This document shows, piece after piece, positions 37,185 through 40,397 of a stretch of 40,397 bases of DNA. Position 1 is the stretch's first letter, and every line of letters starts with the position of its first letter. The notes beneath the pieces are model-generated. The model was not told where the DNA came from. It was given only the letters and a program-made list of their open reading frames with translations, and made no database searches. Location: the NCBI GenBank assembly GCA_903829945.1, contig CAIKRV010000095.1, positions 1 to 40,397 on the forward strand. Reading direction: 5' to 3'. The position numbers were made by a program, and so were the translations under genes. This DNA is from an uncultured bacterium (GTDB lineage: Bacteria > Bacteroidota > Bacteroidia > CAILMK01).

Positions 37185-37646
37185 ATGGCAGTTTATACGA
37201 TTCACGAAGTTCAATTAATACCGGCAAGCAAAGAAATTGTTTGGGATTTCTTATCTACCGCAGATAATTTAAAAAATATTACGCCTCCATTTTTAGGCAT
37301 GCAAATTATTTCTAAAAGTCAAACTAAAAAAGTATATCCGGGAATGATCATCAGATATAAACTTTCCCCCTTATTAGGAATAAAACTTTCTTGGGTCACT
37401 GAAATAACACAAGTAAAAGACTTGGAATATTTTGTAGATGAACAAAGAGTAGGGCCATATGCCTTATGGCACCATGAACATCATATGAAGGAACAAGATG
37501 GAGGTATATTAATGACGGATATCGTCACCTATGCCCCACCATTCGGCTTTCTTGGGAGAATTGCACATTTTCTATTTATTAAAAGGCAATTAAAAGCAAT
37601 TTTTGACTACAGAAGGAAAAAATTAGAAGAAATTTTTCCGGCCTAG
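37185..37646 (+). CDS. SRPBCC family protein
   Basis: A 153-residue START-like fold protein with a single ligand-binding domain: AVYTIHEVQLIPASKEIVWD opening, F..DNLKNITPP, GMIIRYKLSPLLGIKLSWVT, EHHMKEQDGGILMTDIVTY and a C-terminal helix with RRKKLEEIF. It has no signal peptide or membrane segment. Ligand unknown; the cytosolic subgroup (YndB/AHSA1-like and cyclase-like) includes no consistent catalytic motif. It lies 49 nt after the TRIC gene. Confidence 0.84.
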   Translation: MAVYTIHEVQLIPASKEIVWDFLSTADNLKNITPPFLGMQIISKSQTKKVYPGMIIRYKLSPLLGIKLSWVTEITQVKDLEYFVDEQRVGPYALWHHEHHMKEQDGGILMTDIVTYAPPFGFLGRIAHFLFIKRQLKAIFDYRRKKLEEIFPA

Positions 37647-37695
37647 TTTAGCTGTTTAGAATCAATCTTTTGCCACTTTATTTAATTCCTCTTTT

Positions 37696-37711
37696 ATCAT
37701 GTTAACATGAT
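37696..37711. promoter_or_regulatory. Perfect 16-bp palindrome, probable Crp/Fnr operator
   Basis: ATCATGTTAACATGAT reads identically on both strands. It lies 45 nt before the regulator's start codon and 31 nt upstream of the -7 box. Such two-fold symmetry suits a dimeric Crp/Fnr regulator and suggests autoregulation. Base pairs were checked by hand. Confidence 0.65.
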
Positions 37712-37715
37712 GAAT

Positions 37716-37723
37716 ATCATGTT
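37716..37723. promoter_or_regulatory. Extra half-site ATCATGTT
   Basis: It repeats the left half of the palindrome at 37696, direct orientation, 20 nt apart (start to start). Confidence 0.5.
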
Positions 37724-37742
37724 TTTTGCTAACAAGTATTGA

Positions 37743-37750
37743 TACTTTTG
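37743..37750 (+). promoter_or_regulatory. -7 box TACTTTTG for the Crp/Fnr gene
   Basis: Exact TAnnTTTG match 5 nt before the ATG at 37756; the predicted transcript is leaderless. It lies inside a longer TTG frame from 37726. Confidence 0.6.
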
Positions 37751-37752
37751 TA

Positions 37753-37760
37753 AACATGTT
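37753..37760. promoter_or_regulatory. 8-bp palindrome AACATGTT over the regulator start codon
   Basis: AACATGTT shares the ACATG core with the upstream palindrome and overlaps the ATG at 37756; occupancy could block initiation. It could be a chance match because it is short. Confidence 0.35.
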
Positions 37761-38373
37761 AAATAGCATTACAAATATTAATTTCCATGAAAAGGAATTG
37801 AAGGATGAGTTGGATGCCATTGAGCACATGTATTTCAAGGCCGGTGAAGAGCTCATACGTGTAAATTCCTATATTAAAGTTATTCCATTATTAGTCACCG
37901 GGCTTATAGGCGTCTATAGAATGGATGAAGAGGGTAGGGAGATATTGCTTTATTACATCAAACCCGGTGAGACCTGTATTATGAGCTTTTTAGCAGGCAT
38001 AAATAATAATACCATTAAGCTTAGGGCAGTTATTGAAGAAGATTGCGAATTAATCATCATCCCGGTGGATAAGGTGATACAATGGGTAAAAAAATACCCT
38101 GAATGGGTGGATTATATTTTTAAGCTATATAATAAACGATTTGAAGATCTTTTGGAGGTCGTAAATGCCATTGCATTCCAAAAAATGGATGAACGTATTT
38201 TTCAAAATCTTCAAAAAAAGTCTGAAATGTCGGAGAAAAAGGAAATTTCAATAACCCATCAACAATTAGCTGATGAAATAGGCACTACCCGTGAGGTTGT
38301 TTCTCGCTTATTAAAGAAAATGGAAAGAGACGGATTATTAAGCTTGGGTAGAAATAAAATAGTTCTTATGTAA
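37756..38373 (+). CDS. Crp/Fnr-family transcriptional regulator
   Basis: A 205-residue cytosolic DNA-binding protein: cyclic-nucleotide-binding-like beta-roll (about 20-110, with RVNSYIKVIPLLVTGLIGVY and IKPGETCIMSFL), dimerisation helix (about 115-145), and a Crp-type winged helix (about 163-205, ISITHQQLADEIGTTREVVS, recognition helix TTREVVSRLLKKM). The beta-roll lacks the RxxxSxE cAMP pocket, and there is no N-terminal Fnr iron-sulfur cysteine cluster. It has only two cysteines, Cys74 (GETC) and Cys97 (EEDCEL), which could be redox sensors; Bacteroidota homologues often share this layout. ATG 37756 follows the promoter box. Palindromes upstream suggest autoregulation and it likely controls the rhodanese genes downstream. 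Confidence 0.9.
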   Translation: MLNSITNINFHEKELKDELDAIEHMYFKAGEELIRVNSYIKVIPLLVTGLIGVYRMDEEGREILLYYIKPGETCIMSFLAGINNNTIKLRAVIEEDCELIIIPVDKVIQWVKKYPEWVDYIFKLYNKRFEDLLEVVNAIAFQKMDERIFQNLQKKSEMSEKKEISITHQQLADEIGTTREVVSRLLKKMERDGLLSLGRNKIVLM

Positions 38374-38389: not shown

Positions 38390-38424
38390 GAAGCTAATTG
38401 CCATCCTAATTTTGCTCCAACATT
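38384..38424. promoter_or_regulatory. 11-bp inverted repeat overlapping the -7 box
   Basis: AATGTTGAAGC (38384-38394) and GCTCCAACATT (38414-38424) are inverted copies with one mismatch and a 19-nt spacer. The second arm starts at the last base of TAATTTTG. It could be an operator or an RNA hairpin; no T-tract follows, so a terminator is unlikely. Confidence 0.45.
38407..38414 (+). promoter_or_regulatory. -7 box TAATTTTG for the rhodanese operon
   Basis: Exact TAnnTTTG match, 23 nt before the ATG at 38438, within the inverted repeat. Confidence 0.55.
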
Positions 38425-38437
38425 AAAAATTAATATC

Positions 38438-38644
38438 ATGAAAAAGAACATGGGAAACGCGGATAGAATCATCCGATTTTTAGTTGCTATAGTAGTAGCT
38501 ATTTTATATTTTACTAATACAATAAGTGGAACTGCTGCCATTATTTTATTTGTAATTGCAGCAATTTTCTTGCTTACCAGCTTTATCAGTTTTTGTCCTT
38601 TGTATTTACCTTTTGGAATTAGCACCCGTAAAAGCAATAAGTAA
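38438..38644 (+). CDS. DUF2892/YgaP-like small membrane protein
   Basis: A 68-residue inner-membrane protein with two hydrophobic helices (about 13-28 and 32-50), headed by KKNMGNADRIIRFLVAIVVA and ending in FCPLYLPFGISTRKSNK. This matches the DUF2892 family, seen as the C-terminal membrane part of the E. coli YgaP rhodanese. Cys53 is the only cysteine (SFCPLY), a position shared with this family. It is placed before two rhodanese genes, and its stop overlaps the next start (TAATG), so here YgaP's domains appear as separate, coupled genes. Function: likely thiocyanate, sulfite or sulfur export or membrane docking, not established. Confidence 0.87.
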   Translation: MKKNMGNADRIIRFLVAIVVAILYFTNTISGTAAIILFVIAAIFLLTSFISFCPLYLPFGISTRKSNK

Positions 38645-38931
38645 TGAAAATTAAAGAATATATAGAAAATGGCGCCACCATTTTGGATGTTAGAACACCA
38701 AAGGAATATATGGGTGGCCATGTGGTAGGGAGTATCAATATTCCGTTACAAGAACTTCCTGATCGCCTGGATGAAATAAGATCCTTAAAAATGCCTTTGG
38801 TATTGTGTTGCGCCAGTGGTGCTCGTAGCCAAGCGGCAACCAACTTTTTAAAACAACAGAACTTCGATTGTCAAGATGGAGGCTCATGGTTAAATTTAAA
38901 CTTTATAAAATCCGAAATTCATGTTAAATAA
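38644..38931 (+). CDS. Single-domain rhodanese (sulfurtransferase)
   Basis: A 95-residue cytosolic sulfurtransferase, probably carrying a persulfide on cysteine. It has the family motifs ILDVRTPKEYMGGHVVGSIN and the active loop CCASGARS, where Cys56 is the catalytic residue and Cys55 is next to it. It starts one base inside the membrane protein's stop (TAATG) and overlaps the next rhodanese by 11 nt. Dual-Cys loops could allow disulfide release of sulfur, but that is inference. Sulfur donor and acceptor are unknown. Confidence 0.9.
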   Translation: MKIKEYIENGATILDVRTPKEYMGGHVVGSINIPLQELPDRLDEIRSLKMPLVLCCASGARSQAATNFLKQQNFDCQDGGSWLNLNFIKSEIHVK

Positions 38932-39238
38932 AATTAAGTCACTATTAGGATTAGGGCCGGCAATTAATTTTAAGGAATTAATGGGGCGCGGCGCTATAAT
39001 TATTGATGTTCGTACCAAAGGCGAATTTGCTTCAGGACATATAGAGAAATCTATAAATATTCCTTTGCAGAATTTAAGTCAAAATTTATCTAAAATTGAT
39101 AAAAATTCACCAATTATTACATGCTGTGCCTCCGGAATGAGAAGTGCAAATGCTAAAAATGTTTTAATTGGAAAAGGATTTAAGGAAGTAGTCAATGGCG
39201 GAAGTTGGTCCTCTTTAAATAATAAATTAAATCATTAA
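38921..39238 (+). CDS. Second single-domain rhodanese (sulfurtransferase)
   Basis: A 105-residue paralogue of its neighbour: IIIDVRTKGEFASGHIEKSI and the active loop CCASGMRS (Cys68-Cys69, with Cys69 catalytic by position), then GFKEVVNGGSWSSL. It begins inside the previous gene. The N-terminal extension of about 12 residues (LNKIKSLLGLG) is amphipathic; whether it binds the membrane protein or a membrane is unknown. Duplicate single rhodaneses imply distinct sulfur acceptors or steps. It is followed 4 nt later by the OsmC gene. Confidence 0.9.
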   Translation: MLNKIKSLLGLGPAINFKELMGRGAIIIDVRTKGEFASGHIEKSINIPLQNLSQNLSKIDKNSPIITCCASGMRSANAKNVLIGKGFKEVVNGGSWSSLNNKLNH

Positions 39239-39242
39239 ATAT

Positions 39243-39674
39243 ATGAGTCACAATTATAATGTTTCTTTACAATGGAAAAATGGCAGAATAGGTGAGTTAT
39301 CTTCACCTGAACTTGAAACTCATTTTGCAGTAGCAACGCCACCGCAGTTTGATCAAGGGATAGAAAATATCTGGTCACCGGAACATTTATTTACCGCATC
39401 TGTCAGTAGTTGTTTTATGACTACTTTTCTTGCCATTAGTTCGCATTCTAAAATGGAATTTGAATCATTTACTTGCAGGGCAGAAGGCGTTTTGGATCAA
39501 ATTGACGGAAAATATTTGATGACTGAGGTCAAATTATTCCCACATCTTGTAATTTTGAGGGAAGAAGACCGGGAAAAGGCAGATAGAATTTTGACAAAAT
39601 CAGAAAAAGCTTGTTTAATCAGTAATTCTGTCAATGCCAAAGTGAGCCTATTCCCTGATATATCTGTCAATTAA
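39243..39674 (+). CDS. OsmC/Ohr-family peroxidase-like protein
   Basis: A 143-residue member of the OsmC family, which uses two cysteines to reduce organic hydroperoxides. Cys57 lies in SVSSCFMTTFLAIS and Cys124 in SEKACLISNSV, the two expected catalytic positions; Cys78 is extra. The N-terminal HNYNVSLQWKNGRIGEL is family typical. Members of this subgroup next to rhodaneses may act on thiol persulfides or S-adducts instead of peroxides. ATG 4 nt after the second rhodanese; operonic. Confidence 0.9.
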   Translation: MSHNYNVSLQWKNGRIGELSSPELETHFAVATPPQFDQGIENIWSPEHLFTASVSSCFMTTFLAISSHSKMEFESFTCRAEGVLDQIDGKYLMTEVKLFPHLVILREEDREKADRILTKSEKACLISNSVNAKVSLFPDISVN

Positions 39675-39688
39675 TAATTTTACTTACA

Positions 39689-40397
39689 ATGCAAAAGTTG
39701 AGTGTGTATTTTGCTTTAACCCTGTGCCTTGCATTTTCTGCTTGCCAATCCACTACCGTCCCGGCCTCAAATGCCGGAAATACTGAAATGAGTGAAAAGC
39801 TGGATGCCACGCAATTTGAAAACTTGTTAAATAAAACTCCCGATGCACAATTGGTGGATGTGCGTACTCCGGAAGAATATGAGGGAGGACATCTAAAGGG
39901 CGCAAAGAATATTGATTATAATTCCAATGAATTTAATTTGAATATTTTGACCTTGGATAAAACCAAAAGTATTTTTGTGTATTGTTTGAGTGGAGGCAGA
40001 AGCGGTAAAGCTGCCGATTTTCTACGTGCCAATGGATATAAGGAGGTTTATGAATTAAATGGTGGTATATTAAAATGGAAAGCAGCTCACAAAGCATTGG
40101 AAGGCGCTGCTAATGCAGAAACTTCCGAGTTATCTTTGGATGATTACCATCAAAAAATAAAAAGTGATAAACTGGTTTTAGTAGATTTTAATGCCACTTG
40201 GTGTGGCCCCTGCAAAATGTTGTCTCCAATTTTAGAAGATCTTGCTAAAGACTACAAGAATAAAATTGAACTTTTAAAAATAGATGTAGATCAGAATAAA
40301 ACAATTGCCAATGATTTAAAAATTGAATCATTGCCAACCATGATTTTGTATAAAAAAGGCGAAAAAACTTGGATGAAAATTGGTTTTACTGAACGCG
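39689..40397 (+). CDS. Lipoprotein: rhodanese-thioredoxin fusion (truncated by window end)
   Basis: At least 236 residues with no stop before the window edge. Order: lipoprotein signal with Cys19 (LCLAFSAC, -3 residue F, so a slightly atypical lipobox), rhodanese domain about 35-135 (LVDVRTPEEYEGGHLKGAKN, active Cys99 in VYCLSGGRSG), then thioredoxin about 145 to the end (Cys172-Gly-Pro-Cys175, VDFNATWCGPC, cis-Pro216 in SLPTMIL). It should be anchored outside the inner membrane. It may use a CXXC redox pair to reduce sulfane sulfur from its rhodanese half, but this is inference. It starts 14 nt after osmC. Confidence 0.9.
   Translation, partial: MQKLSVYFALTLCLAFSACQSTTVPASNAGNTEMSEKLDATQFENLLNKTPDAQLVDVRTPEEYEGGHLKGAKNIDYNSNEFNLNILTLDKTKSIFVYCLSGGRSGKAADFLRANGYKEVYELNGGILKWKAAHKALEGAANAETSELSLDDYHQKIKSDKLVLVDFNATWCGPCKMLSPILEDLAKDYKNKIELLKIDVDQNKTIANDLKIESLPTMILYKKGEKTWMKIGFTER

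Follow-up and report, generated by a model that had tools for sequence, protein, structure and literature searches.

A spaced dyad at -41.5 upstream of a Crp/Fnr-family regulator gene from an uncultured Bacteroidota bacterium and a predicted two-step circuit toward sulfur-type genes

The locus and its overlapping repeats

The window, that is, the whole stretch of 40,397 nucleotides analysed here, harbors a gene for a Crp/Fnr-family regulator that is preceded by a short intergenic region with repeated octamers and followed by a row of genes of sulfur type. The features relevant to the following discussion are:

37696-37711, no strand: perfect (exact) palindrome ATCATGTTAACATGAT, centre 37703.5, corresponding to -51.5
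37704-37723, no strand: spaced dyad AACATGAT-GAAT-ATCATGTT, predicted FNR-type class II operator, centre 37713.5, corresponding to -41.5
37743-37750, + strand: -7 promoter box TACTTTTG of the TAnnTTTG consensus, with a predicted transcription start at 37755
37756-38373, + strand: Crp/Fnr-family regulator gene (PF00027 and PF13545), 205 aa
38370-38383, no strand: GTAACATTAGGTAC, probable operator of the window regulator, overlapping the regulator stop codon and one mismatch away from a perfect dyad
38407-38414, + strand: -7 box TAATTTTG belonging to the sulfur-type operon and located 23 nt beyond the 14-mer, which is centred at -42.5
38438-40396, + strand: genes for a YgaP-like TM protein, two rhodaneses, an OsmC-like protein and a rhodanese-thioredoxin protein that runs off the window, all by Pfam hits

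The first-pass annotation had assigned the gene downstream of the palindrome to the Crp/Fnr family, which is borne out by Pfam hits above the cut-off to PF00027 (35.4 bits) and PF13545 (47.7 bits), i. e. a beta-roll of the cNMP-binding type and a Crp-type HTH. An N-terminal Fe-S FNR cysteine cluster was not found in the protein, which as translated has no Cys in its first 80 residues. The gene row behind the regulator contains three rhodanese domains (38644-39238, 39689-40396), the last of which is joined to a thioredoxin.

The same annotation had singled out the palindrome, and ATCATGTTAACATGAT is indeed identical with its own reverse complement. Likewise, the octamer ATCATGTT is found with the annotated letters at 37716-37723, but the label of a direct extra copy does not do it justice. 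The octamers upstream of the regulator gene are arranged as ATCATGTT-AACATGAT-GAAT-ATCATGTT, of which the first and second make up the palindrome, while the second and third form a dyad with 4-nt spacing. The supposed extra copy is thus the second arm of a better dyad, which is centred at -41.5 and recurs in the two orthologue loci L046 and L081. The palindrome itself probably arises only because three octamers stand side by side, as a by-product of the overlapping, offset dyad.

On its own, the palindrome does not exceed chance at the scale of the window. Order-1 Markov windows of 36% G+C contained a mean of 1.45 perfect 16-bp palindromes and at least one in 45 of 60 cases; with about 1.5 expected per window, symmetry alone proves little. 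What is notable is the position together with the third octamer: a perfect 16-bp palindrome within the 109-bp intergenic region has a probability of 0.0044 (20,000 simulations), and a palindrome with a third octamer copy no more than 20 nt away arose in one of 60 simulated windows. Besides ATCATGTTAACATGAT itself, the window yields no match when as many as 3 mismatches are allowed (expected number 0.52), and the 2.9-Mb genome holds no second exact copy. Near copies with up to 3 mismatches occur at 25 places genome-wide, compared with 23 for the pattern read backward, and there is hence no family of palindrome copies in this genome. The scan for palindrome-like sites that the annotation had proposed as support therefore returned background.

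A better position for the predicted operator lies 10 bp downstream from the palindrome centre. The dyad has the core nTGAT-N4-ATCAn at 37707-37720, with the inverted repeat TGATGAATATCA at 37708-37719 carrying TGAT-N4-ATCA. In one account of Bacteroidetes promoters, the -7 box TAnnTTTG is numbered T-12 to G-5 (PMC6847099). Applied to TACTTTTG, this numbering makes 37755, the base directly preceding the ATG, the +1 position. The 14-mer at 37707-37720 is separated from the -7 box by 22 nt, and the dyad is thus centred at -41.5 from the predicted start. Class II activator sites are usually centred at this very position. Two 8-base arms with a 4-nt loop in the -41.5 register were met in only one of 60,000 simulated stretches, and an 8/8 match to TGAT/ATCA has a probability of 0.00023 if three registers are allowed. 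Within the window, this is the single place with a TGAY-N4-RTCA dyad 22 nt before a -7 box.

The -7 box ends 5 nt before the ATG of the regulator gene (37743-37758), and this layout suggests that the mRNA is probably near-leaderless. A -7 box likewise lies 3-8 nt before the start codon in 30 of 49 orthologue loci, with a gap of exactly 4 nt in 26 of them, in which case +1 would fall on the A of the ATG. As background, among those predicted transcripts of F. johnsoniae for which there is a probable promoter, 87% have leaders of more than 10 nt (PMC6847099), and in F. psychrophilum 5.5% of the examined mRNAs are leaderless (PMC9723704). A count of the TAnnTTTG-to-ATG gaps over the fetched loci did not serve as background, since the orthologues are part of it. 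The annotated octamer AACATGTT at 37753-37760 does overlap the ATG at 37756 and, moreover, the predicted transcription start. Given the near-leaderless layout, it is best read as predicted core-promoter and coding sequence, and no operator mark was found on it.

Recurrence of the dyad and its candidate binders

In the genome from which the window derives, TGAT-N4-ATCA followed by TAnnTTTG after 22-25 nt is found at 13 places, the dyad of the window among them, while about 1.16 are expected for these four spacings (Poisson 4e-10); the backward pattern is found at none, a control that is subject to a word-content caveat. This caveat applies to the 20-genome count below as well, which is why a spacing control was run: at 26-56 nt, the same pair occurs at 9 places over 31 spacings, the basis of the expected number, compared with 3 for the backward control. 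Counted from the 14-mer, the 13 places display a spacing of 22 nt in 8, 21 nt in 2 and 23 nt in 3 cases. Two of them are exceptions, one inside a long open frame (L127) and one without a clear gene after it (L128). Ten downstream proteins were scanned as 110-residue N-terminal stretches, and five gave Pfam hits, namely to cytochrome c assembly, fatty-acid desaturase, radical SAM, beta-eliminating lyase and HD. Further genes behind TGAT sites appear, by eye, to be cytochrome P450-like and haem-motif lipoprotein-like. A count of WTGATN4ATCAW without the -7 box (55 vs 27 per strand) was not used as evidence, since the backward pattern has other word content.

Across 20 chosen genomes, 71 such class II matches compare with 4 for the backward pattern, and 18 of the genomes contain at least one. 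The other two, G007 and G009, have no TGAT class II place despite 8 HTH_Crp_2 matches each. The genomes G001, G002 and G003, which belong to the same genus or family as the window genome, hold 5, 6 and 5 places, and an orthologue of the window regulator was found in none of the three at E 1e-20. With completeness values of 78%, 67% and 95%, respectively, the missing orthologue is weak evidence in the case of the incomplete G001 and G002. A TGAT set in genomes without a found orthologue points to another Crp/Fnr protein rather than to autoregulation. On contig C7 of G002, a TGAT-N4-ATCA class II site (L184/L218) precedes a Crp-like gene; the beginning of this gene encodes a stretch rich in Cys, SSCAKCKAYHQSIFC, reminiscent of Fe-S FNR.

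The two orthologue loci with a comparable dyad, L046 and L081, are MAG contigs titled Bacteroidia bacterium. Their proteins are 64% and 62% identical to the window regulator, respectively, and form one clade with it in a quick tree (SH-aLRT 98). Upstream of the regulator gene, L046 contains CTGAT-TTTT-ATCAT at 23 nt from the -7 box, 1 nt off the window spacing, and L081 contains ATGAC-TTAT-ATCAC at 22 nt; the window and L046 score 8/8, and L081 scores 7/8. The three upstream regions were compared by distance to the -7 box, as a MAFFT alignment did not anchor on the start codon. The gene upstream of the regulator in both loci differs from that in the window. The palindrome was seen upstream of neither of these two nearest orthologues found. 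The dyad, too, is not conserved upstream of orthologous regulators in general: 29 of 47 distinct loci could be scored, the other 18 having no -7 box close to the start, and of these 29 loci 3 score at least 7/8 and the remaining 26 at most 6/8. L046 and L081 are close to each other, and the conservation thus amounts to few independent observations.

Plausible candidates for a protein binding the dyad come from the same genome, in which three proteins exceed the HTH_Crp_2 cut-off (a fourth match lies below): the window regulator, a stand-alone Crp (C44) and a response-regulator-Crp fusion (C91). The locus of the latter (L106, contig C91) encodes a receiver, a Crp-type sensor and an HTH, with a histidine-kinase-like frame nearby as judged by eye. 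The recognition helix ends as ATEVLIR and APESVIR among C44 and C91, and as TREVVSR in the window protein. The Arg before the helix Glu is therefore present in the window protein and absent from C44 and C91. In CRP, an Arg before the Glu reads the G at the first half-site position. This G occurs in neither arm of the upstream dyad and in 3 of 26 half-sites of the 13-place set (manual count), while it occurs in both halves of all 33 scored dyads downstream of the regulator genes (see below), where the score favors that G.

Taken together, the predicted binder of the upstream dyad is most likely either C44 or C91. A further comparison covered those 17 of 28 Crp-like proteins that fit a helix pattern, with 50 HTH_Crp_2 matches among those listed. 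In it, the gene of a G002 protein with 64% identity to C44 is preceded by TGATGTAAATCA, at a distance of 73 nt from its start. In G003, one of two HTH_Crp_2 matches shares 56% of its residues with C91 (332 residues compared); the other is a 78-aa fragment, and neither is a close C44 relative. A point against this reading is that the predicted specificities overlap, as the downstream site GTGATATATATCAC of the Glu-type orthologue locus L089 was also matched by the TGAT search of its genome (G250).

The regulator family and an operator at its stop codon

The family was analyzed using 49 orthologue loci, which are the best-scoring loci returned by the searches and not a random sample; removal of the duplicates L099 and L126 left 47 distinct loci. 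Twelve loci were left out as more distant or truncated (L038-L045, L053, L054, L061, L062), and L055-L060, L063-L080 and L082-L088 were fetched but stayed outside the analysis. A scan of viral_contigs found no relative.

In 33 of the 47 distinct loci, a GTRAY-like dyad is found no more than 75 nt from the regulator stop codon; this limit and the score cut-off (>=14) were set after the sequences had been seen. The scoring consensus was likewise derived from these sequences by eye. Independent of it is the spacing to a -7-like box (relaxed pattern), which amounts to exactly 22 nt in 29 cases and 23 nt in one, with no box found in three. In 32 of these 33 loci, the genes that follow encode a rhodanese, a YgaP-like TM protein, OsmC, a TauE/TSUP-like or a metallo-beta-lactamase-like protein, or a small membrane protein before them, and in the remaining locus (L029) a thioredoxin-like gene is next; these classes were assigned by eye, while Pfam was run on the genes of the window only. 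No site was scored in the other 14 loci. Seven of these are followed by unrelated genes (L018, L019, L032, L036, L091, L100, L105), L033, L034 and L102 have sulfur-type genes 329-546 nt away, and in L016, L052 and L097 such genes lie nearby, with sites that are tied with the cut-off or fall short of it; the neighbor in L024 was not classed.

The site in the window itself, GTAACATTAGGTAC, scores 13.0 and falls under the cut-off of 14. Being one mismatch off and 23 nt from its -7 box, it is weaker than the sites of the relatives. Genome-wide, GTRAY class II places with 2 mismatches show no excess over the backward pattern (47 vs 56), so that no large regulon of the window protein is visible, and GTAAC-N4-GTTAC with 1 mismatch was found 66 times per strand, compared with 237 for the control. 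Judging from the orthologue loci, the window family probably uses as its operator a GTRAY-type dyad close to the stop codon of the regulator gene itself, ahead of genes of the rhodanese/YgaP/OsmC/TauE type, and the window regulator seems to control sulfur-handling genes.

All 30 loci chosen independently of the motif GE[ST]C encode its Cys; the count is confined to them, since L089-L105, L125 and L126 were located by a motif of this type. The Cys may sense sulfane sulfur. The window protein has a Glu-type helix, while Valine-type orthologues display ARVVVSR. The third half-site position is G in 0 of 40 halves of the Valine type and in 12 of 24 of the Glu type, but the Glu/Val change is single on the tree, and this is thus one event for which a paired test has no power.

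A predicted two-step circuit and its alternatives

The reading we favor, with slightly better than even confidence, is that the functional element is not the palindrome but the dyad at 37704-37723, and that its binding by C44 or C91 activates the regulator gene as the first step of a two-step cascade. Such a Crp/Fnr-family dimer, sitting at -41.5, would contact RNA polymerase and thereby raise expression of the window regulator, activation rather than repression being inferred. The regulator may in turn occupy the GTRAY-type dyad that overlaps its stop codon, which would activate the rhodanese/YgaP/OsmC operon. Dimeric Crp/Fnr-type control from upstream of the -7 box, as first annotated, hence remains plausible, but not with the palindrome as the operator, which is centred at -51.5 and was not seen upstream of the L046 and L081 genes. 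The guess of autoregulation is thereby replaced by a circuit with exact coordinates, and two operator sets with defined promoter geometry are predicted for Bacteroidota: one consists of TGAT-N4-ATCA at -41.5, the other of a sulfur-gene operator located on the stop codon of its regulator.

Autoregulation itself, which the annotation had held likely, would require the window protein to bind the spaced dyad as a degenerate GTGAT-type site and so activate or limit its own gene. This is in line with its Glu-type helix (TREVVSR), as the downstream half-sites of Glu-type orthologues are GTGAT or GTGAC, with the equal spacing of the upstream dyad and of the orthologues' downstream sites to their -7 boxes, and with the one GTGAT arm of the L081 dyad. 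Yet, both arms in the window are ATGAT and thus begin with A, as opposed to G in both halves of 33/33 scored downstream dyads, even if the other four positions fit GTRAY. Moreover, the TGAT set occurs in relatives without a found orthologue, 26 of the 29 distinct loci whose -7 box allows scoring reach at most 6/8 at the -41.5 place, and the regulator has its own probable operator of the GTRAY type elsewhere. Autoregulation is therefore a less probable reading than regulation by another Crp/Fnr protein and, on the whole, unlikely.

The dyad could also be the intrinsic terminator of the upstream Polyketide_cyc-family gene (37185-37646), with 37704-37711 and 37716-37723 as stem, GAAT as loop and a T-run behind, while the first octamer could serve as an anti-terminator arm. 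The 8-bp arms, 4-nt loop and TTTTTT (37704-37727) fit this idea; two such hairpin and T-run structures lie on the + strand of the window, compared with a mean of 0.53 in 15 simulated windows, and the RNA fold of 37700-37732 (-6.6 kcal/mol) is beaten by 4 of 200 shuffles. The stem is weak and A+T-rich, however, the fold of 37690-37732 favors the palindrome hairpin instead (-7.8 kcal/mol), a consensus terminator scan demanding 3 G-C pairs did not return the structure, and no T-run follows the L046 and L081 dyads. A terminator thus seems distinctly unlikely. That palindrome and dyad are both functionless products of chance is improbable: the number of perfect palindromes expected per window would allow it for the former, but the position of the dyad at -41.5, its recurrence in two orthologues and the set of 13 places in the genome speak against it. 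Least probable, and very much so, is that the palindrome itself serves as the operator of an unrelated dimeric regulator, for which its perfect symmetry within the short intergenic region could be invoked; it has a single exact copy in the genome with near copies at background level, was not seen in L046 and L081, and is overlapped by the better positioned dyad.

Beyond the circuit of C44 or C91, the window regulator and the sulfur-type operon, it is conceivable, though tentative, that a Crp/Fnr subfamily controlling sulfane-sulfur handling is widespread in Bacteroidota, with the conserved GE[ST]C Cys and a -41.5 operator in its own stop codon, in which one ancestral Glu/Val helix change went along with a half-site shift and of which the present clade came under a separate FNR-type network.

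The FNR consensus site is TTGAT-N4-ATCAA at -41.5. The window dyad resembles FNR/CRP class II sites in its TGAT-N4-ATCA core and its centre relative to the predicted start, but differs in the outer base of its arms, which is not T (ATGAT on both sides), in a promoter of the Bacteroidetes -7 rather than the -10/-35 type, and in that the candidate binder is not an identified Fe-S FNR. NtcA of cyanobacteria recognizes GTA-N8-TAC sites. Its helix letters, STRVTVTR as seen in the sequence, are similar to those of the Valine-type orthologues of the window regulator (ARVVVSR), which have GTAAC-N4-type sites. The window protein, in contrast, is of the Glu type (TREVVSR), and its genes are of sulfur rather than nitrogen type.

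A description of the window regulator family or of the Bacteroidota TGAT set was not found in the open-access literature, in searches some of which may have missed the slash spelling of Crp/Fnr. A study of Crp/Fnr meta-regulons in an anammox community, in which a Bacteroides MalR model was applied to genomes of Flavobacteriales, Saprospiraceae and Ignavibacteria, likewise predicts regulators of this family and operator models in Bacteroidota; the sections of it at hand mention neither a sulfur operon nor a stop-codon operator (PMC8510549). A Crp-like protein of Acinetobacter baumannii is reported to be persulfidated, with no known effect (PMC7315123). The persulfide-responsive regulators covered in the available account, CstR, SqrR/BigR and FisR, are members of the CsoR, ArsR and Fis families, whereas the window regulator belongs to the Crp/Fnr family and has a conserved Cys with a putative sensing role; they resemble it in that they adjoin sulfur-handling genes and sense through cysteines (PMC9774590).
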